From assembly GCF_026210795.1 (NCBI RefSeq), contig NC_089439.1, forward strand, positions 4,278,001 through 4,342,000: 64,000 bases of DNA, read 5' to 3'. Of the stretch, positions 20-64,000 are shown in pieces; position 1 is the first letter of the stretch; every line of letters begins with the position of its first letter. The notes below the pieces were generated by a model that was not told where the DNA came from, did no database searches, and saw only the letters and a program-made list of their open reading frames with translations. Origin of the DNA: Rhizophagus irregularis (lineage: Eukaryota > Glomeromycota > Glomeromycetes > Glomerales > Glomeraceae). Made by a program: the position numbers and the translations under genes.

Positions 20-676
20 TTACTCACACTCCAGATGAATCAGTTGAAACTGGATGTTGGGTTTCCTGAATTAGAATATTCCATTCACCATTCCTTATTG
101 GATAATTGTCATATAATAAGTCAGATTAAAAATTTAAGTATAAAATATAATAGGTCATTGTACTTACAAGTTAGTGTGACTATTAGTCTTTCTGGAAAGA
201 AAAATACTCCATAAATTACGAATGTCTCGTAAAATTAGAGACTTATTGTTGAGGTTAGAATTTAATAATGAAGAGTGATTTATTTTGTCGTACATAAAAT
301 AAGTTATTCCAATAAATGGGTAAAAACCTTCAAGATGTAAATTTCTGGATTGGTCTAACAAAAGGTAGGTTAACCCAAGAACGAATTTCATAAAAGCTAC
401 GAGTGATGTACGATCATTAGGAAAAAATTGTTCGTACGTGTGGACGTCAGAAATTAATGTAATTTGAGTAGGATCAAGATCCCGGCTTGTTATTGCGTCA
501 ACGAATCTTTGGAAGTTGTAATCTTTTGACCTCAAAACTTCGTTCGTATTATTGTCAACAATAATATTTTTGGTTAAACACCAATCTTTAATGCGAGAAT
601 GTGTATATTTGTTAAAAAATTTTGCTAATATTTCGGATACATTATCGATATTATCATGATAAATCGATGTTCGCAT
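20..676 (-). CDS. Unknown conserved protein, copy 1 of a local duplicate pair
   Basis: An open frame of about 170 codons starts at the ATG read from position 676 (MRTSIYHDN). A further in-frame ATG lies nine codons upstream at 703, but copy 2 has a stop upstream of its MRTS start, so 676 is preferred. The long frame stops at 164, where the stop overlaps a GTAAGT donor that copy 2 also keeps. If that donor is used, an acceptor (TTCAG, after TTCTAAT) about 100 bp downstream adds a short tail ending near position 20. I do not recognise the family: no signal peptide, a hydrophobic central stretch (KFVLGLTYLLL) and a motif DLDPTQITLISDV shared with copy 2. The long exon is certain as sequence; the second exon is tentative. 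Confidence 0.55.
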
Positions 677-703
677 TTTATCTGGAAACCACGTATTTAT
701 CAT

Positions 704-960
704 AAATATGCGTTATTCTTAACGTTATGTTAACGTTTCGTTTATCTCTCTTATTCTTGATTGTTTATTTAACGTTTGAGTAAAATGTGTGTGTAGATTT
801 ACTGAATTTACTGGGTCAATAAAGAAATATTATATATTAGATTAGACTAAATGACTTATATAATATGTTTAAAAGTAAAGCAGGTAAATTTTTAGATAAA
901 ATTTTATCAGCTTTATGCTCTTATAAGAAAATCAATAAATGAAAAAAATAACTAAATATA
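704..960 (-). promoter_or_regulatory. Upstream region shared by both duplicate-gene copies
   Basis: About 250 bp upstream of copy 1 aligns by eye with 7528-7830 upstream of copy 2, including the blocks TTAACGTTTCGTTT, AAAATGTGTGTG and ATAATATGTTTAAAA. The duplication therefore carried the promoter as well as the coding region. No confident TATA box was seen. Confidence 0.4.
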
Positions 961-7014: not shown

Positions 7015-7527
7015 TTACAAATTAGTATGACTATTGGTCTTTCTAAGAAGGAAAATACTCCATAAATTACGAATGTCCCGTAGAATAAGAGCCTTATTCT
7101 TAAGATTTGAATTTAATAATGAGGAATTGTTTATTTTGTCGTACACAAAATACGTAATTCCAATAAATGGATAAACATCTTCAAGTTTAAAATTTCTGGG
7201 TTGGTCTAATATAAGATAAGTTAATCCAAGAACGAATTTCATAAAAGTTACGAGTATCATACTGTCATTAGGAAAAATTTGTTCGTATGTTTGGACGTCA
7301 GAAATTAATGTAATTTGAGTAGGATCAAGATCCCGGCTTGTTATTGCGTCAACAAATCTTTGGAAGTTGTAATCTTTCGGCCTTAAAACTTCGTTTGTAT
7401 TATTATCGACAATAATATTTTTAGTTAAACACCAGTCTATAATGCGAGGATGTGTATATTTGTTAAAAAAATTTGCTAAGATTTCAGATACATTATCGAT
7501 ATTATCGTGATAAATTGATGTTCGCAT
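7015..7527 (-). CDS. Unknown conserved protein, copy 2 of the duplicate pair
   Basis: A 170-codon frame beginning MRTSIYHDN, with an in-frame stop upstream of this ATG. It is strongly similar over its whole length to copy 1, with scattered substitutions. Both copies are uninterrupted and changes are spread without frameshifts, which suggests both are or recently were under selection. As in copy 1 the terminal codons run into GTAAGT, so a short downstream exon is possible. Function unknown; no transmembrane segment, zinc-finger pattern or catalytic motif is visible. Confidence 0.6.
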   Translation of the reverse strand: MRTSIYHDNIDNVSEILANFFNKYTHPRIIDWCLTKNIIVDNNTNEVLRPKDYNFQRFVDAITSRDLDPTQITLISDVQTYEQIFPNDSMILVTFMKFVLGLTYLILDQPRNFKLEDVYPFIGITYFVYDKINNSSLLNSNLKNKALILRDIRNLWSIFLLRKTNSHTNL

Positions 7528-7864
7528 TTTATTGTCAGAGAAGTAAATTTAATATGCGATAGAATGTAGTACAGGTTATTGTTAACGTTTCGTTTTATTC
7601 CGCTTTTCTAATTTGATTGTTTATTTAATGTCCGATACTCCGATTATATTACGATTGTAAAATGTGTGTGGGTAAAGTTCCTGGAATTCACTGGGTTCAA
7701 TAGAAGGAAATATGAGATTAGACGAAATGGTTTATATAATATGTTTAAAAATAAACCAGGTAAATCCTAAGGTAAAAGTTTTATCAACTCTCTTTAAGAA
7801 AATCAATAAATGAAAAATGAAAAATAACTAAAAAACTTAAAAACTTCAGTTGCATAGTTGTATA
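7528..7864. other. Duplicate of the upstream region of copy 1
   Basis: This is the counterpart of 704-960, with small insertions and deletions, ending near the shared AAATCAATAAATGAAAAA. No additional gene is seen. Confidence 0.45.
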
Positions 7865-16840: not shown

Positions 16841-16900
16841 AAAATTATATATGTATAAAGTAAAATTAATATAACGTTTATATAAGAAAAAAAAAATTTA

Positions 16901-17680
16901 ATGTTTAAAAAAATGCGCTTTAATATTATTTCTTTATTAATTTTTTCCTTCTTGATATGTTTTGTACATAGTAAAATTGTTAATGATCAAACCCTTTCAA
17001 TAACCATTAGAGACTTCTTATTATCAAAAGGAGATAAGTTTGTTAAGGAGACGACAAATGTTTCGTCAAATATAAGAAAAAGAGATGCTTTACCGATGCC
17101 ACAGGCTGTACCAGGTGTACCAGGTGCACCAGGTGCACCAGGTGCAGGTAAAGATGCGGGAAAAGTTAAAGAACCAGCGAAAGAACCAGCGAAAGGACCA
17201 GGGAAAGAACCAGCGAAAGAGCCAGCGAAAGCACCGGGTGCAAATCCACCAAACCCACCAGCTGCAAATCCAAACCCAAATGCTGCAAATCCAAAGAATC
17301 CGGCAGCCGGTCCGGGGAAAGAGCCAAAAGGACCAGCTAAAGTGCCTGAACCTAAAGTACCACAACCTCAACCTCAACCTCAACCTCAGCCTCAACCACA
17401 ACCGCAACCGCAACCTCAACCTCAACCTCAACCTCAACCTCAACCTCAACCTCAACCTCAACCGCAGCCTCAACCTCAACCTCAAGAACCTCAACCACAA
17501 CCACAACCTCAAACTCCAGTACCAACCACTACTTATGTTGACCCTGGTGTTGTACCTACCGTTCGTCCATTTAATGTTAATAATAAATATGGTGGTGCTG
17601 ATAAATTGAAATTTTATCAAGGGAATTCTTGGATAATTATTTTAATGGTTACTAATTTTTTATTTTTCACTTTATTATAA
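16901..17680 (+). CDS. Secreted Pro/Gln-rich cell-surface protein, probably GPI-anchored
   Basis: One exon, 259 codons, beginning at the first ATG (a second ATG at codon 5 would serve equally). Residues 5-24 form a signal peptide (SLLIFSFLICFVHS). Residues 25-61 end in IRKR, a Kex2-type dibasic site, so they look like a propeptide. Then come a collagen-like GVPGAPGAPGAG stretch, a Lys-Glu-Pro-Ala repeat, an Asn/Pro/Ala segment and a long Pro-Gln dipeptide tract (about residues 155-205). The tail GNSWIIILMVTNFLFFTLL is a short polar site followed by a terminal hydrophobic stretch, the usual GPI-anchor signal. It likely coats the cell wall or the plant interface. Coding sequence is much GC-richer than its surroundings. 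Dipeptide repeat number may vary between strains. AATAAATAG at about 17762 is a candidate poly(A) signal. Confidence 0.8.
   Translation: MFKKMRFNIISLLIFSFLICFVHSKIVNDQTLSITIRDFLLSKGDKFVKETTNVSSNIRKRDALPMPQAVPGVPGAPGAPGAGKDAGKVKEPAKEPAKGPGKEPAKEPAKAPGANPPNPPAANPNPNAANPKNPAAGPGKEPKGPAKVPEPKVPQPQPQPQPQPQPQPQPQPQPQPQPQPQPQPQPQPQPQPQPQEPQPQPQPQTPVPTTTYVDPGVVPTVRPFNVNNKYGGADKLKFYQGNSWIIILMVTNFLFFTLL
17350..17515 (+). repeat. Coding hexanucleotide repeat CCTCAA (Pro-Gln)
   Basis: Roughly 25 consecutive CCNCAR hexamers encode the Pro-Gln tract; synonymous CCT/CCA/CCG and CAA/CAG variants show local re-duplication of sub-blocks. Confidence 0.85.
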
Positions 17681-48798: not shown

Positions 48799-51700
48799 CT
48801 AATGATTCATATCTTCAACTACACAATCATTCAAATCTTCACTTCTTGACATTTCATACACTTTTCCACTAGTAAAATCACTTGCATAATATGCTTGTGA
48901 ATCTTGACTTTCAATTTCACTACTAATTTCATTAACTCTATAATACGAACAATTACTTTTTAAACTTTCATTCAATTTTTCACTAGTAAAATCAAGTAAA
49001 CGACTCGTATAATGTGCTTGTGGATGAGTTCTAGTAATAAAAGGATTTCTATTCCTAAATAGAGCTCTTCTAAATTCCATAATATTGCTTTTTAATTCTT
49101 CATTAATATCTTCAATACTCGCTCTATTAGGAAGAAAAATCCAATTCTCAATAATATTTTTAACTTCTAATGCTGATGGTCTTTTTAATGGATCTTCATT
49201 CCAACATTTTTTAATCAAATTTATATAACATTGTGGAGTATTTTCAATAATTTCAGGACGTTCGCCTTTACAAATACTTAAACTAAGTTGAAAATCATGT
49301 GCTTTATCATGAAATGGTGGAACCCCAGATGTAAATTCCCACATAATCATAGAAAAACTATATATATCACTAGCTTGAGTATAAGGTTTGCCTCTTAAAA
49401 CTTCAGGTGCCATAAATGGTATGACACCATAAATACTATCTTTTTTTAAAGTAAATTTTACAGGCTTACATAATCCTAAATCACTAATATAAATTTTATC
49501 ATCCTCATGATTTAAGATATTACCATCATGAAAATCACAATGAATAAGTTTTTTTCCATGTATTTTACTAAGCCCGGAAATAATTTTATACAACATGTGT
49601 AATTTCTTTTTCCAATCATATCTAACTATATTTGTTAAATTTTCTCTTAAATTTCCTCTATTTGCATAATCCATTACAACCATATAATTCAAAGTATCTG
49701 GATTTTTTGTGAATCCATATAAATAAATAATTTCGCCTGAATCTAAACAACTTTCATGATAATCCCACTATAGAATATAAAATTATATGTTAGTATAAAT
49801 AAATCAGCAAAAATTAAAAGAAATATTATATTATTATACCTCATTTAAAAATTCATTTAAATTTTCATTCAAATTATTAGAACATTTAAGAACCATTTGA
49901 TTAGCATTATCTACAAATTTAGCTTTATATACAGTACCAAATCCTCCTTTATCAAAATATTTAACATTTACAAATTTACAATAAGGAATCCATTTTAAAC
50001 CTTTTTCAAAAATAAATTTATCCATAATTGCATTTCCACTTTCTCCAAATCTATAATAGTAATTATGGTAATTTATGTTATATTGATAATACGTTAAAAT
50101 ATTAAATTAAAAAAAAAATAAGATTAATACTTACTCTAAAACAAAATAAATATTAATAAATATTAATTTTTTATATAAATAATATTTAATAATAATCTAA
50201 AATTTATAACTTACCAACTAAAACAAAAAATTGAATTCAATTAAAATAGATTATAAATAAATATGTAAATATATAATTAATAGAGTTAATAAATATTTTT
50301 AACTTACAACCTAAAAAATGATTTTTTAAATAAAAATTTTAATTAGTCTAAATTATATATAAATATGTAATAAATAAATAATTTATAACTTACAATCTAA
50401 AATAAATTGTAAAGAAATTTTTAAATAAAGAATTTAGTCAGTAAATTATGTGCAAACATCATATATAATAATAGTAAATAATATATATAACTTACAATCT
50501 AAAATTAATTATAAAATAATTTTTTAATAAAAAATTATTTATTTAATTTTTTAAATGAGTATATAAGTATTATATAAATAAATGATATTATTACGCATTA
50601 AATGTAATCATGTTATTTTTACCACATTATATTATTAAAATATAAAATATTAAAATTTATAAGTATGCTAAAAAAGTTGAAGCATAATCTTGGACATCTG
50701 TATGATGATACAGCAGTTATTAGATAGGAATATTAAAATGGTATTCTAATATACATCCAATATTCCTATTTAATAATGCACAGAATTATTGTATACTTCC
50801 AGGTAGGATGGAACCCGGAAAGGTCTCATGTAGGCAAAGGTGTTAAATGGGTCAAAATAATCGTGTGGATCTTTCTTTTATAGATAACTTTTAATAATTC
50901 TAGTTTGGAAATTATTTTCTTTTAGATGCTGGCTGGTATTATTATAATTCCAGCCCTGAAAGAGATGCCTAATGGTATTTTTTTTTTTTGGCATCACCTT
51001 ACTTATATGAGACTTTTCTGGGTTTTTCCAAAATTAAGCACTATAGAAATAAGTACCCCCACCTTAAGTTATATGTTATAAATGTTTTTACTGAAATTAT
51101 GTACAAAAGGAGATGCTTAGTTTGGAGGATATAGTAAATAAATAACTTACTCCCTATATCATTAATTTTTTTAAATAAAGAATTTAATTAATTTAAATTA
51201 CATGTAAATATTATATACAGAAACCAGATCCTTACTTCCTATATTATCAAATGATTTATTAAATAAAGAATTTAATTATTTAAATTACTATATAATAATA
51301 TGATAATAGAATTAAATAAATAACTTACTTTCTATATTATCAAATGATTTATTAAATAAAGAATTTAATTAGTTTAAATTATATAATCATATGATAATAG
51401 AATTAAATAAATAACTTACTGTCTATATTATCAAATGATTTATCGAATAAAGAATTTAATTTGTTTAAAATTATATAAACATATGAAATAAATAAATAAC
51501 TTACTTCCTATATTATCAAATGATTTATTAATAAAGAATTTAATTAATTTAAATTATTTAATAATATGATAATAGAATTAAATAAATACTTACTTTCTAT
51601 ATTATTAAATCATTTATTAAATAAATAATTTAATTAGTTTAAATTGCATTTAAAATATTACTAAAATAAAAATTAAATAACTTACTCACTACACCATTAA

Positions 51701-52948
51701 TTAATTTTTTAAATGAATTCACTAGTTAGCTAATTCTATATCAATATATGTAAATATATAATAATAGAATTAAAAAAAATAACTTACTCCCTATTTAAAT
51801 TATATATAAATATAATAGAATTTTAATAGAATTTAAAATTATGAGTTATATATTAAATAATTTATTAAGTTAGTTTAATTGTATGATAATAATAAAGAAT
51901 TTGGTTAGTATAAATTGTATATAAATATGATAAATATATTATAAAAATATAATAAAATTAAATAGCTTACAATATAAAAAATCTAAAATTAAAGAATTTA
52001 TTAATTAGTTAAAATATATTGTGTAAATATATATAATAATAAGATCAAATAAATAGCTTATAACTTACAATCTGAAATAATTATTGATAAAGAATATAGT
52101 TAATTTAATTATACATATATTAAATATTACATAAATATATAATCACAAAATTATATAAATAGCTTACTATCTATATTATTAATAAATTAGTAAGTTTAAA
52201 TGTAAATATCAAATGAATAAATAGATAACTTACTCGCTATATTGTTAAATAATTTTTAAATGAAAATTTAATTAGTTTAAATTATATAATTATATAATTA
52301 TTATGTAAATATTTATAAATAAGTTATACTTACTATAAACTGCCAAAATAATTTATTAAATAAAGAATTATATTATATATAAATGCTATGAATGTATAAT
52401 AATAAATCAAGAAATAATTTATAACTTACAATCTAAACAAAATACCAGAATAAATAATTTAGTTAATTTAAATTAAATATAAATATTGTATTAATACATA
52501 ATATTAAATTAAATAAATAACTTACTTCCTATATTATTAATTAATTTTTTAAGTAAAGAATTTAAAACCATATTTAAATATTATATAATTATGCGAATAT
52601 ATAATAAATAAATAACTTACTCCCTATAGTATTAATTTTTTAATTAGTTTTAAATTATATACAATAATATTATATAAAATAAATGAATAATAACATACTT
52701 TCTATATTATTATTTTTTAAAGGAAAATAAATATATATATATAAATATTATATAATGGAAGAGTTGAATAGATTAGTAACTTACGAGCTATATTATTAAA
52801 TAAAGAATTTATTAAATACAAAAAACCATATAAATATATAATAAAAGAATTAAGTAAATAACTTACCTTCTGAATTATTGAATTATTTTTAAATAATGAA
52901 ATTAATTAGTACAAATTATATAAGAATTATAACGAACATACTTGTCAT
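48799..52948 (-). CDS. TKL-like protein kinase 1, with a 5' micro-exon array (proposed)
   Basis: The kinase exons are firm: 50050-49840 and 49767-48799, joined by an intron with GTATAA and CTATAG. They encode the Gly-rich loop (YFDKGGFGTVYKA), the Lys of MVLKC, the catalytic loop LIHCDFHDGNIL (HCD in place of HRD, catalytic Asp kept), SDLGLCKP (DLG for DFG), FMAPEVLRGKPYTQ, DIYSFSMIMWEFTSG and CWNEDPLKRPS. A Ser/Tyr-rich tail follows. The exon opens with FGESGN before any Met, and kinase 2 has the same entry, so the start must lie upstream. Proposed upstream exons: ATGACAA at 52948-52942, then 23 units of 3 bases (two are 6 and 12 bases), then one single base at 50135. Read in phase 1 these are open and enter the kinase exon in frame, giving about 422 residues. 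The alternative start is the Met in IMDKF at 50025. Confidence 0.75.
50135..52869 (-). repeat. Micro-exon-like array of kinase 1
   Basis: In gene order (lowest coordinate of each): AAG 52867, CTC 52785, AAA 52699, GGA 52621, GAA 52527, ATT 52430, a 6-base unit 52334, CGA 52234, ATA 52168, ATT 52069, a 12-base unit 51971, GGA 51788, TGA 51686, AAA 51594, GAA 51505, ACA 51420, AAA 51329, GAA 51236, GGA 51151, ATT 50496, ATT 50394, GTT 50308, TTG 50215, A 50135. Almost all have TAG (or CAG) before and GTAAGT or GTAAGC after. GTATGT follows 52699 and GTAAGG follows 51236. Near 51850 a unit appears lost. TGA at 51686 is harmless in phase 1 but would be a stop in phase 0. Confidence 0.7.
50811..51026. 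mobile_element. Foldback MITE inside the kinase 1 array
   Basis: AACCCGGAAAGGTCTCATG at the left end pairs imperfectly with CATATGAGACTTTTCTGGGTT-like sequence at the right end (near 51005-51025), with CAAAGGTG and CACCTTA also matching inside. An inner hairpin around CTGGCTGGTATT is present. It lies in the intron between the units at 50496 and 51151. Confidence 0.55.
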
Positions 52949-58823: not shown

Positions 58824-59009
58824 GCCGATCTGCACATAATTCATTATGACAAGCAAATATGGCATATCGTAATATATGTCGATCATCAAGTCTCATTGTT
58901 GCACAGAAAAATTACACGCCATATATATCCATTAATGAAAAAAAAGAAAAAAAAAAGATATTTATATTGTCTTTCCAGTTAGAGAGAATTTTGATATAAT
59001 TGTATAATA

Positions 59010-62000
59010 ATGGCTGATAAAGGTAAAAATCATAAAAATCATATACAGCATGAACATTTAATATAACTAAAAATCTAAAATTTTTAAACAACTTACGATA
59101 AGTTTCAAGTGGCACTAAGGAATCTGAAGGTAAATATAATATATATAATATATTAAACGAGCTGAGACGTCTTTAATTATGAAATAAAAATTATTTGCAA
59201 ATAATTTAAATACTATCTATTATTATATCTTATGTAATATACATGTACGATTTAAACTAACTATATTATATAAAAATTATATAGCTCGTAAGTTAATAGG
59301 TTATCTTATATATAATTGAATAATAATGGAGTTACTTATTTTTGTTATATCCATATAACTAAATAATTCATTAATAATATTATAGTTTGTAAGTTAAATC
59401 TTTAGTTCTTTTACTTAATTATTTTACTTAATATTAAAATAACTAAATTCTTTGTTTAAATGACTATTTAATAATTGATTATATTATAGACAGTAAGTTT
59501 CAATATTTAAAACTTATGTTTATTTGTTTAATATTTTATATAACTCAGCTAATTATATTCTTAATTTAAATAATTAGATTGTAAGTGTTTTATTTAATTT
59601 ACAGCAAATACTTTTGTATTATATTTATATCAACTAATTAATAATTAATACAGGGTGTAAGTTGTATACGTGATATTTCTATTTCTATTATTTATATAAT
59701 TTAAGTAACTAAACTCTATTACAAAATTATTTGGTAATCTCTTTTTAGTTAGTAAGTTATATTGATTCTTCTATTACATATTTATATAATATTTACACGT
59801 AATTTAAACTAACTAAATTCTATGTTTAAAAATTATTTAATAATATAGAGCGTAAGTTAATTTATTTAATTCTAACATTATTAAATATTTAAATAATATT
59901 TACATATAATTTAAACTAACTAAATTACTAATTTATAATATAGGGAGTAAGTTATTTATCTATTTCTATATACATATTTATATAGTATTTACGTTTATTT
60001 TAAACTAACTAAATTCTTTATTTAAAAATTATTATATGATTTCTTTTAGCTGGCAAGTTATGAGTTATTTATTCGATTCACATTTATATAATATTTACTT
60101 ATAATTTTAAACTAACTAAATTCTTTATTTAATAATGATATAGAGAGTAATTATTTATTTGATTCTATTATTACATATCTGTATTATATTTACATATAAT
60201 TAAGCTAACTAAATTCTCTTAAAAAATTATTTAATAATATAGAGAGTAGGTTTTTATTTGATTCTATTACATATCTGTTTAACATTTACTTATAATTTAA
60301 ACTAACTAAATTCTTTATTTTAATAATATAGAGTGTAAGTTTTTTATTTAATTCTATTATTATGTATTTATATAATATTTACATATAATATAAACTAACT
60401 AAATTCTTTATTCAAAAAATTGTTCATTAATATAGTTCGTAAGTTATTCATTAATTCTGATATTATTTACATATAATTTAAAACTAACTAATTCTTTATT
60501 TAATATTATTTAATAATATAGAGTGTAAGTTACTCTATTACTAGTAAACGGAAACTGGAGCGAAAAAAAGATAAACCTCGGATGACGTCACGTGAAAATT
60601 CACGTGACCACGTGATTGATTATTTTTCATAATGCGTAGACGTATATAGTCCTTCGCTTTGCTCCGGACAATTACTCATTGTTATAATATTTACAAAAAT
60701 TTAAACTAACATAATTTCTTTATTTAAAAAATTATTTTGTAATTTCTTTTAGATGGTAAGTTATTTATTTAATTCTATTATTACTTATTGCTATAATATT
60801 TATAATATTTACTTATAATTTAAACTAACTAAATTCTTTATTTAAAAAATTATTTTGTGATTTCTTTTAGTTTGTAAGTTATTTATTTAATTCTATTATT
60901 CCTTATTATTATATTATTTACATATAATTTAAACTAACTAAATTCTGTATTTAAAAAATTATTTAATAATATAGATCGTAAGTTATTTATTTAATTCTAT
61001 TAAATTTTACTTATAATGGTGTTGTTAGCCGAATTCCTGATTGCCGATCATCCGAACCCGGTTTTAATCGCAGAAAATCCACGACGATCTACACCTGAGC
61101 CGGGTCTGGATCACGTTGCGGCTAATTATTTTTCGGCTAACTGCATCATTATTTTTTATAATCCTTTACTTAACTAAATTCTTCATTTAAAAATTATTTG
61201 ATAATATAGGGCGTAAGTTATTTAATTCTATTATTACTTATTTATATAATATTTATAATTAAACTAATTTAATTCTTTATTTAAAAAATTATTTAATAAT
61301 ATAGTTCGTAAGTTATTTATTTAATTTATTATTACATATTTATATAATATTTAAACTAACTAATTTTTTATTCTAAAACTATTTATTAATATAGATAGTA
61401 AGTTATTCATTTAATTCTATTATTATATGTTTATATACTAATATTTATACATAATTTAAACTAACTAAATTTTTTATTTTTTAATAATAATAGCTTGTAA
61501 ATTATTTATTTAATTCTATTATTGCTTATTTATTTAATATTTACTTATAATTTAAACTAACCTTTATTAAACATTATTCAATAATATATAGGGAGTAAGC
61601 TATATAATTCTATTATAAATATAACATATTTATTTAATGTTTTTACAATTAATTTATACTAACTAATTTCTTTATTTAAAAAAATTGTTTAATAATATAG
61701 AAAGTAAGTTATTAATTCAATTCTATTATTATATATTTATATAATATTTACATATAATTATACTAACAAAATTCTTTGTTTAAATAATATAGAGAGTAAG
61801 TTATTTAATTAATTCTATCACATATTTATATAAGAAAATTTCTAATTTTAACCGGAGGGGAAATTCCTCCCGTGACGAATAAGTGTGTCAAATAGGAATT
61901 TTAATAACAAAATATTTCATCCCCAAATTAATTAAATAAAATGAAAACCCGTGGGGCGTGATACGTTGTGATAATTAAACCTAACCTAACACTAACCTAA

Positions 62001-64000
62001 CCTTAATCCTAAACCCTAACTCTAATAAATATTAGGGGATATTTCCCCGGTTAAACGTAGTTATTTTCTTTATATTATAATTTAAACTAACTAATTTTAT
62101 TTATTTAAAAAATTATTTTGCAGCTGGTAAGTTATAAGTTATTCACTTCTATTACATATCATATTTATAAATTATTTGCATATAATTTAAACTAACTAAA
62201 TTCTTTAATTAATTAATAATATAGCTCGTAAGTTATTTATTTAATTCTATTATTAAATATTTGTATAACATTTATAAATGATTTAAATTAACTAAATTTC
62301 TTTATTTAAAAAATTATTTAATATAAATATAGTTCGTAAGTTATTTATTTAGTCTTATTATTGCTTACATATAACTTAGACTAATTGAATTCTTTATATT
62401 CAAAAATTATTTAATAATATAGAGTGTAAGTTATTTATTTTAATTCTATTAGTATTTACATATAATTTAACTAACTAAATTCTTTATTTTCTAAATAATA
62501 TAGTTCGTAAGTTATTTATTTAATTCTATTATTATTTACATATAATTTAAACTAACTAATTATTTATTTAAAAATTATTTCTTAATAATATAGAGTGTAA
62601 GTTATTTAATTAATTCTATTATTACATATTTATATAATATTTGCATATAATTTAATTAACTAAATACTTTTTTAAAAAATTATTTTGTAATTTTTTTAGG
62701 GCGTAAGCTATAAGTTATTTATTTAATTCTATTATATTTTATATAATTTAAACTAACTAATTTCTTTATTTAAAAAATTATTTAATAATATAGAGAGTAA
62801 GTTATTTATTTAATTCCATTATTTACTTATTTACATAATAATTACATATAATTTAAACTAACTAAATTCTTTATTTAAAACTTATTTAATAATATAGAGA
62901 GTAAGTTATTATTTATTAATTCTATTACTTACATATTTATATAATATTTGCATATAATTTAAACTAACTAAATTCTTTATTTAAAATTATTTAATAATAT
63001 AGATAGTAAGTTATTTACTTAATTCTATTATTACATATTTATATAATATTTGCATATAATTTAATCTAACTAAATTCTTTATTTAAAAAATTATTTATTA
63101 TATAGATTGTAAGTTTTATTGTTTCTATTATTATGATTATTATATTATTTATAATATTTATTTGTTAACCAAATTCTTTCATTTAAAAAAAATATCTGTT
63201 ACTTTAGTTGGTAAGTTGTGAATTATAGGTTTTTTTTATATACATTTGTACATTTATACAAAAACTAAGGCTTATATTGAATTTCTATTTAAATTTTAGA
63301 GTAAGTGATTTTAATTTTAATTTTAAATTTTAGTGTAAATTTTAATACATAACTTTTAAATATAATTTTAATTTTTTAAATTTATAGATTTGGAAAAAGT
63401 GGAAATACAGTTATAGATGAATTTATTTATGAAAAAAATTTAAGATGGATTCCTTATAATAAATTTAAAAATGTTAAATATTTTAATGAAGGAGGATTTG
63501 GTATTATATATAAATCTATTTGGTTAAATGATAGTGGAAATAAAGAAGTAATACTTAAATGTCACAGTGATTTAAATGAAAATTTAGATGAATTTTTAAA
63601 TGAGGTAGATAGTTATTATTTATTTTTTCAATTTAAATTATAATTTTATCTATACTAATATATTAATATATTATTATTTATAGTGGAAGTATCATGTAAG
63701 TTTTTTAAACTCATATGATATTATTAATTTTTATGGATTTACAAAAGATCCAGCTACTTCAAAATATATGGTAGTAATGGATTTTGCAAACAAAGGTAAT
63801 TTAAGAGAAAATTTAGCAAGAATAATCAAATTTACTTGGAAACAAAAATTATATATGTTGTATGAAATTATTACTGGACTTAAGGATATACATGAACAAA
63901 ATCTTATTCATTGTGATTTTCATGATGGAAATATTTTAAATCATGAAGATAAAAGTGAGGACAAACTTTATGTTTGTGATTTAGGATTGTGTCGACCTGT
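59010..64000 (+). CDS. TKL-like protein kinase 2, with a 5' micro-exon array (proposed), 3' end outside window
   Basis: The kinase exons are 63388-63604 and 63684 to beyond 64000. They encode RWIPYNKFKNVKYFNEGGFG, the Lys of VILKC, YMVVMDFANKGNLRENL, LIHCDFHDGNILNHE and CDLGLCRP. The first kinase exon has no Met, so upstream exons are needed. Proposed: ATG exon 59010-59022 (MADK plus one base), exon 59103-59129, 36 three-base units from 59285 to 63210, and a one-base unit at 63300. In phase 1 there is no stop. The peptide begins MADKVSSGTKESE, contains LYNWFKRTEKKF and HTWKKTALQFQWQKNN, and enters FGKSGN in frame at residue 51. Introns are 70-112 bases except three carrying insertions. Whether every unit is spliced in is unproven. 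The C-terminus, including APE and the tail, lies outside. Confidence 0.75.
60547..60669. mobile_element. MITE, GGAGCGAA family, copy 3, in a kinase 2 intron
   Basis: The left end ACTGGAGCGAAAA and right end TTCGCTTTGCTCCGGAC match the family. The interior has CACGTGA repeated and CATAATGCGTAGACGTA. It lies between the units at 60522 and 60753. Confidence 0.8.
61024..61141. mobile_element. 118-bp MITE with GTTAGCCGAA termini, in a kinase 2 intron
   Basis: GTTAGCCGAA (61024-61033) and TTCGGCTAAC (61132-61141) are exact complements. The interior is GC-rich against its surroundings. It lies between the units at 60975 and 61210. Confidence 0.8.
61847..62054. mobile_element. MITE with TTTAACCGG termini and telomere-like interior, in a kinase 2 intron
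   Basis: TTTAACCGGAGGGGAAAT pairs with ATATTTCCCCGGTTAAA at the right end. The interior carries degenerate CCTAACCTAAC, CTAACCTAACC and AACCCTAACTCTAA at about 61980-62020. It lies between the units at 61793 and 62124. Confidence 0.75.

Follow-up and report, generated by a model that had tools for sequence, protein, structure and literature searches.

Predicted arrays of single-codon exons upstream of a protein-kinase subfamily in Rhizophagus irregularis

How finely can a coding sequence be divided among exons? The question is raised by a locus of the fungus Rhizophagus irregularis lying in a 64,000-nucleotide stretch of contig NC_089439.1 (assembly GCF_026210795.1, positions 4,278,001 to 4,342,000, forward strand), hereafter the window, in whose coordinates features are given. 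Near the end of the window, a long series of units, each consisting of a splice acceptor, three bases and a donor, precedes the exons of a kinase. A preliminary description, based on the letters alone, had taken these units for exons. Judged from the sequence, the locus very probably encodes a protein kinase, with its N-terminal segment divided into exons of one codon each that are spliced serially in phase 1, followed by a one-nucleotide (nt) exon and the kinase exons. The DNA has exact 3-nt spacing, conserved flanks, an avoidance of stop codons at neighbour junctions only, and gene models that are mostly open.

The first coding exon (59010..59022, +; ATGGCTGATAAAG) encodes MADK and ends in phase 1, as do the paralogous first exons encoding MGQCIGK, MDQCIGK, MDKCIK, and MAHSNDK. 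The 27-nt exon that follows (59103..59129, +) encodes VSSGTKESE, runs from phase 1 to phase 1, and resembles a longer paralogue exon (...TKESK). The array itself (59285..63210, +) comprises 36 units of the form acceptor (TAG/CAG)-NNN-donor, the donor being mostly GTAAGT, and encodes (A)LYNWFKRTEKKFQYVYRLHTWKKTALQFQWQKNNF in phase 1. Our first pattern, YAG-NNN-donor, found 35 of them; the unit CTT (61494..61496, +), which has the weak donor GTAAAT, was added as the 36th. Dropping this unit yields RLHRKK in place of RLHTWKK. A single A at 63300 (+) then forms a Glu codon (G/A/A) and shifts the array into the frame of the first kinase exon (63388..63604, +), which is read as A/TTT GGA AAA, giving FGKSGNTVIDEFIYEK...GGFGIIYKSIW, and is matched in paralogues. 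The second kinase exon (63684..64000, +) runs on beyond the end of the window. The joined model, MADKVSSGTKESEALYNWFKRTEKKFQYVYRLHTWKKTALQFQWQKNNFEFGKSGN..., contains no stop, and the kinase exon hits one nine codons on if the one-nt exon is left out. The count of 36 units given in the preliminary description is exact, and the ATG exon, the 27-base exon, the one-base unit and the start of the kinase exon lie where it had placed them, in frame.

The units are confined to this region. A strict pattern, [CT]AG-NNN-GTAAG[TC], occurred 32 times in 59001-63400 and 0 times on the + strand of the remaining window. Chance can be set aside as their origin: first-order Markov simulations of the region produced a mean of 0.02 and a maximum of 1 in 300 runs, versus the 32 observed. 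The introns of the array are AT-rich and mostly 73-115 nt long. Three longer ones (60525-60752, 60978-61209, and 61796-62123; 228, 232, and 328 nt) contain sizeable stretches of different sequence and have intact splice sites; CCTAA-rich, telomere-like runs occur near 61980-62035, within one of these. The whole kinase model of the window matched PF07714 (E = 1.2e-39; 136.6 bits, cut-off 23.1) and PF00069 (119.9 bits, cut-off 31.7). A Pfam scan of the 73-residue kinase start alone returned no match. By eye, the model appears to carry the kinase motifs HCDFHDGN and DLG.

We searched the genome (146,748,485 bases, 32 contigs) for related arrays. A 404-base piece of the array had 348 matches, those listed being clustered on many contigs. 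In 27 merged stretches around these matches, 28 arrays were detected, an array being kept if it had at least eight 3-nt units. Four more loci were picked upstream of kinases, blind to arrays, and an array was present at all four, bringing the total to 32, several of which were partly read; the clusters at C3:1.092 Mb, C7:1.717 Mb, C7:2.577 Mb, C13:0.781 Mb, and C15:0.884 Mb lie outside this set. A kinase was found downstream of 24 of the 28 arrays within the extracted DNA, and three of the four remaining arrays (C7:2566533, C2:709151, and C2:1355746) have a kinase match on the correct strand immediately past the end of that DNA. Array size is 36 units in the window and ranges from 12 to 91 in the other modelled arrays, some of them partly read; the longest detected chain had 91 units. 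A protein search of the genome gave at least 91 candidate kinase places and at least 130 exon-level matches. The published count for all kinases of R. irregularis is 2,533 (PMC10234402). Going by these sequence matches, such arrays characterise a whole kinase subfamily, which has many paralogues in R. irregularis. The architecture given in the preliminary description is supported; it is common to the subfamily rather than unique to the gene described.

The units are uniform in length and variable in content. With lengths of 1-9 nt allowed and the shortest reading chosen, 1,080 of the 1,123 candidate units in the 28 arrays were exactly 3 nt long; a further 25 were 1 nt long, of which 23 were the terminal A. 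Introns of ≤130 nt (1,014 of 1,095) had a mean length of 96.5 nt (standard deviation, 10.1; range, 53-121). A branch-like motif, CTAAC, was present in 491 of these 1,014, a close variant in 365 more, and neither in 158. Across 1,079 units of the 28 arrays, the entropies of exon bases 1, 2, and 3 were 1.85, 1.38, and 1.98 bits, respectively. Conservation of the splice-site bases is partly imposed by the search pattern. Flanking bases outside the pattern are conserved as well, such as T at -8 (92%) and A at +8 (93%), which bears out the earlier claim of conserved flanks around a variable codon.

The strongest evidence for serial splicing comes from the junctions between units. In the kinase frame (phase 1), a junction codon consists of the last base of one unit and the first two bases of the next. 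Such codons exist, and need avoid stops, only if the units are spliced together and translated. For introns of ≤130 nt in the 28 arrays, a single stop occurred in 971 junction codons, versus a mean of 38.2 and a minimum of 21 in 2,000 permutations. Without the gap filter, there were 3 stops in 1,041 codons versus a permutation mean of 41.1. The effect was specific to distance: at every other spacing tried (-6 to -1 and +2 to +12), 2.3-5.6% of the codons were stops, versus 1/971 at +1. In the full set of 32 arrays, there was 1 stop in 1,029 neighbour codons. When repeated pairs were collapsed within each array, the stops numbered 1/781 at +1, 35/781 at -1, and 21/734 at +2; the arrays containing any stop numbered 1, 21, and 12 of 32, respectively. 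The other phases behaved differently: phase 2 had 139 stops in 971 codons, above the permutation mean of 117.3 (28 arrays), and phase 0 had 5 in 1,080. Because stops are avoided at neighbour junctions only, selection appears to see the units joined serially and in order. That avoidance, limited to the one phase, also agrees with the serial phase-1 joining and one-base entry into the kinase that the preliminary description had proposed.

Codon composition in the arrays is also distinctive. The middle base of each unit, which is the third codon position, was T in 53%, G in 38%, A in 8%, and C in 1% of cases; NNK codons make up 91% of those in the arrays, so that only one stop is possible. The third positions of the kinase exons in the same genes were T 50.7%, A 38.5%, G 7.1%, and C 3.7%. 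The NNK bias is not accounted for by the codon usage of these genes or by the choice of amino acids; it may stem from a splicing constraint or a founder effect. The commonest residues in the variable segment are Arg, Asp, Phe, Trp, Ile, Asn, Lys, and Tyr.

Full gene models were then assembled for the family. First exons were recognised by pattern in 21 of the 32 arrays, the rest having too little upstream DNA or no recognised exon. Eighteen of the 21 models were open, and 17 of these reached the kinase exon from the ATG through the array and the one-nt exon. A typical model begins with MGQCIGK and VLCNTKEPE, followed by a Glu/Ser/Gly-rich exon ending in TKESK and then (A)LNDW[FW]. After the variable units comes a fixed end, usually CTT TTG, then the one-nt A, giving FE, and FGKSGN...WIPYNKFKNVEYLNEGGFGT. 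The gene in the window is a short version of this model. Paralogues thus share the ATG exon, the closing codon units, the one-base exon and the start of the kinase, in support of the proposed one-base entry. The terminal one-nt unit was A in 27 of the 28 arrays for which the kinase start was read, and T in C24_3397000. At the end of that array, an acceptor directly abuts a donor (TTTTGTAG/GTAAGT) in place of the TTG unit; by our reading of the sequence, the T unit and the loss of TTG together keep the frame. N termini of the MGQC type are reminiscent of acylation signals. By eye, the open models showed no hydrophobic signal at their N termini, to which no signal-peptide program was applied.

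Traces of the units are present in public gene models. In the protein searches, the nearest kinases carry the name Rhizophagus irregularis. Among the 120 proteins listed of the 840 found, 102 carry the motif W[IF]PY within the first 300 residues. Protein P0085, whose kinase matches array C15_961109, starts with MAHSNDK..., as predicted from the locus, and continues with 17 residues that form an in-order subset of the units of this array read in phase 1. In 300 shuffles of the units, none reached 17 (best, 16); the reversed order gave 8 and the next best other array 10. None of 14 four-residue pieces of this segment was found in a six-frame translation of the C15_961109 stretch. Similarly, nine residues of P0006, ELGILGIEL, correspond to the last units of its own locus (L064) in order, with one omitted, and are absent from the six frames of the locus DNA. 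For P0011, P0022, P0061, P0089, P0113, and P0075, no confident match to an array was obtained. RNA-seq evidence was used in annotating R. irregularis (PMC6123716, PMC10234402), in the latter case, for strain DAOM197198, with both Nanopore and Illumina RNA reads, so the unit chains in P0085 and P0006 may rest on reads. These chains count as support, short of proof.

Several observations weigh against a serially spliced, translated array. Combining the junction test array by array with Fisher's method gave weaker evidence than the pooled test (p = 4e-4), because many arrays lack units able to form a stop. The single junction stop (ATT/AGA) lies in C6_378500, an otherwise complete member of the family and possibly a pseudogene. 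In the window gene, omitting the entire array and retaining the one-nt exon also leaves the frame open. Thus the open frame from ATG to kinase noted in the preliminary description is real but does not by itself demand the units, and the weight of the case falls on the junction test. Three of the 21 assembled models were not open: C6_378500, owing to its junction stop; C3_4847500, which has two 4-nt units; and C9_1556443, which fails where unit detection has gaps. The upstream exons, moreover, were selected partly for openness and length, with doubtful picks in C28_1527500 and C28_1607500, so that only the array and kinase parts of the models constitute an independent test. Among public models, 60 of the 102 with the motif start ≤24 residues before W[IF]PY, inside the kinase exon, and so have no room for units. 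P0006 takes its units in phase 0 and reaches the kinase via a 5-nt exon, AGTAA, which clashes with the one-nt exon; P0089 is not explained by its array; and no public model was found with the window array or the 91-unit array.

How might such arrays have arisen? Comparison of the units revealed homogenised introns around divergent codons. In unit pairs with ≤2 mismatches in neighbouring columns, the exon bases differed at 50% of positions, versus ≤11% in other triplet columns, the splice-site columns being partly fixed by the search. Between arrays, 5,032 pairs of introns were ≥98% identical over their full length; the 5′ codon was equal in 12% of these pairs, the 3′ codon in 20%, and both in 3%. 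One 101-nt intron had 25 identical copies in 7 arrays, with 17 different codon pairs. Overall, 280 of 1,024 introns had a ≥98% identical copy in another array. The kinase exons of array genes had a median difference of 15.5% (26 exons). Intron tails correlated with the codon that follows, falling by eye into four main classes: ATT/ATC, ATG/ATA, TTG, and a mixed class (GGA, AGA, CGA, GGT, TTC, and others). Neighbouring introns were ≥95% alike in 39.5% of 114 cases in which the codons were equal and in 7.0% of 717 cases in which they were unequal. Tandem copying of an intron together with its codon accounts for part of these data. Taken together, the sequences suggest that a codon changes together with its intron ends, as one unit moved by recombination or conversion in homogeneous intron bodies.

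We lean, by a modest measure, towards diversification by codon cassettes, in which introns are homogenised across chromosomes, single codons are shuffled among dozens of kinase genes, and the resulting deck is spliced in order. The units would be cassettes, multiplied, dropped and reshuffled as recombination or gene conversion acts within the near-identical introns. As such changes add, remove or swap whole codons, the reading frame would be kept. The spliceosome very probably joins approximately 36 three-nt exons, one after another, into a single mRNA, and the product would be a kinase in which a segment that differs between paralogues separates the conserved N terminus from the catalytic domain. 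This segment perhaps serves in recognition or the choice of partners.

An introner-like origin, in which near-identical mobile introns insert repeatedly, each duplicating a 3-nt target so that the array grows codon by codon, is a rather unlikely alternative. Introners occur as many near-identical introns within one genome. Near-identical introns are common to both systems; those described here were seen only in one gene family and with exact 3-nt spacing. The occurrence of ≥98% identical introns beside different codons in different arrays fits this origin, as does a weak excess of introns whose two flanking codons are equal: 0.229 of 179 introns with a ≥99% copy in another array versus 0.060 of 218 whose best copy is <90%. 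Against it, six common introns had no copies outside the two arrays in 68 kb. Moreover, intron tails are tied to the following codon, and neighbours with equal codons have like introns, as tandem duplication predicts. Insertion with duplication of a 3-nt target is unsupported as the sole origin because equal neighbouring codons were only in mild excess (138/1,029 versus a permutation mean of 112.6 and maximum of 146).

It is also conceivable, if unlikely, that splicing is combinatorial, each transcript holding a different in-frame subset of units so that the array yields isoforms. Nearly every skip preserves the frame, P0085 fits only with 22 units skipped, and P0006 fits with one of two end units missing. 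Yet skips in gene models may stem from the alignment of short reads. Further, stops at skip-one junctions amounted to 26/926 (2.8%), which is near the bottom of the range seen at other distances and far above the 1/1,029 at neighbours; skipped forms are thus not clearly protected by selection.

Reading of the units in phase 0 through the 5-nt exon AGTAA, as in public models containing SKFGKSGN, or in both frames of a dual-coding array, is very improbable. P0006, and P0022 by eye, can be read as unit chains in phase 0 that close with SK ahead of the kinase, and phase 0 is largely open. However, few units begin with TG (14) or TA (4), and approximately 6 stops are expected by estimate versus the 5 seen. 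The scarcity of TG units is not limited to stops (TGC 4, TGT 4, TGG 3, TGA 3). Phase 0 is accordingly not favoured as the main frame, its stop count being that expected from unit composition. By comparison, stops are nearly absent from phase 1, and the first exons end in that phase. In the loci read, the donor of the one-nt exon is GTAAGT, whereas that of the 5-nt exon is variable (GTGATT, GTGTTA, GTATTG, GTAATA). Gene finders may reject a one-nt exon and pick the 5-nt one, and the phase-0 public models may reflect a failure to place the former. Kinases of the array subfamily are also present among the public proteins of R. diaphanus (P0022, P0069, P0074) and R. clarus (P0067 and others). The resemblance of the R. 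diaphanus protein P0022 to a phase-0 unit chain, noted by eye, suggests that arrays may predate the split of the Rhizophagus species.

Finally, it is hardly tenable that the array is a non-coding, intron-like satellite in a 5′ intron, with the kinase transcript starting at the kinase exon or skipping the array and the units being fossil or decoy sites: the tandem repeats with periods near 90-107 bases, the many public models that start within the kinase exon, and a kinase reachable in frame without the units are compatible with it, but a satellite gives no reason for stop avoidance in one phase at neighbour junctions or for fixed 3-nt units amid changing intron lengths, serial units are found in two public models (P0085 and P0006), and the distance-specific stop test rules out a simple satellite.

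Single-codon exons in series have partial counterparts elsewhere. By one definition (PMC7653826), a micro-exon gene (MEG) has a minimum of seven exons, and no fewer than half of these are micro-exons, of under 70 nt and of a length that is a multiple of three; the MEGs of schistosomes and tapeworms carry runs of such tiny exons. On its predicted exons, 36 of 3 nt and one of 27 nt, the window gene falls within these numerical bounds. MEG exons are mostly longer than three nt, whereas the R. irregularis units are nearly all single codons, tens per run, with near-identical introns and a fungal kinase as the product. Exons of 3 bp are found in human RPS24, among a few consecutive micro-exons, and in Drosophila homothorax (PMC12686416, PMC11162997, PMC7392893). 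These genes have one to three alternatively spliced micro-exons, in contrast to series of tens in the R. irregularis arrays. One-nt exons that restore the frame occur in Arabidopsis APC11 (PMC4674806) and Fusarium CYP621A (PMC12940212); the one-nt exon in R. irregularis differs in recurring across a paralogous family, after an array of 3-nt exons. Within R. irregularis, the SP7-like effectors are a repeat-bearing family recognised by a common exon-intron feature (PMC11333574). They have a signal peptide and amino-acid repeats, whereas the array genes are kinases. With a kinase domain and no hydrophobic N-terminal signal visible by eye, the array genes appear not to belong to them.

Among the titles listed by a search that covered part of the literature, none dealt with series of 3-nt exons, with micro-exons in Rhizophagus, or with tens of single-codon units joined to a one-nt exon and homogenised introns. 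The same search turned up no described gene with this many three-base exons, in line with what the preliminary description had stated. What seems new in these arrays is the single-codon units by tens, the attached one-nt exon, and the homogenised introns; runs of micro-exons are themselves known. If RNA confirms the arrangement, we would know of no protein-coding genes that are more finely divided. They would test how splicing copes with exons too small for exon definition to work, and whether order and completeness are preserved along 37 successive tiny exons. It would also mean that an entire segment of an expanded kinase family, in a major plant symbiont, is absent from most public gene models. 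Homogenised introns with diverse codons would, in addition, represent a new route to codon-by-codon protein variation.

The window contains a second array, on the - strand (50135..52869), that is shorter and more eroded than the first and has a similar end, ATT/GTT/TTG/A. Paralogous kinase exons lie downstream of it (48799..50050, -), comprising an exon at 49840-50050 and a long open reading frame (ORF) at 48799-49767. Among the units of this second array are one of 6 nt (TTTATA) and a TGA, the latter a stop in phase 0 only; long gaps are free of units, and the array is possibly decaying. Elsewhere in the window, an ORF at 16886-17680 (+) encodes 264 residues; its start resembles a signal sequence, and it carries long repeats of the Pro-Gln and Lys-Glu-Pro-Ala types. 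Two further ORFs, 164-712 (-) and 7015-7548 (-), are near-duplicates of 182 and 177 residues, respectively.

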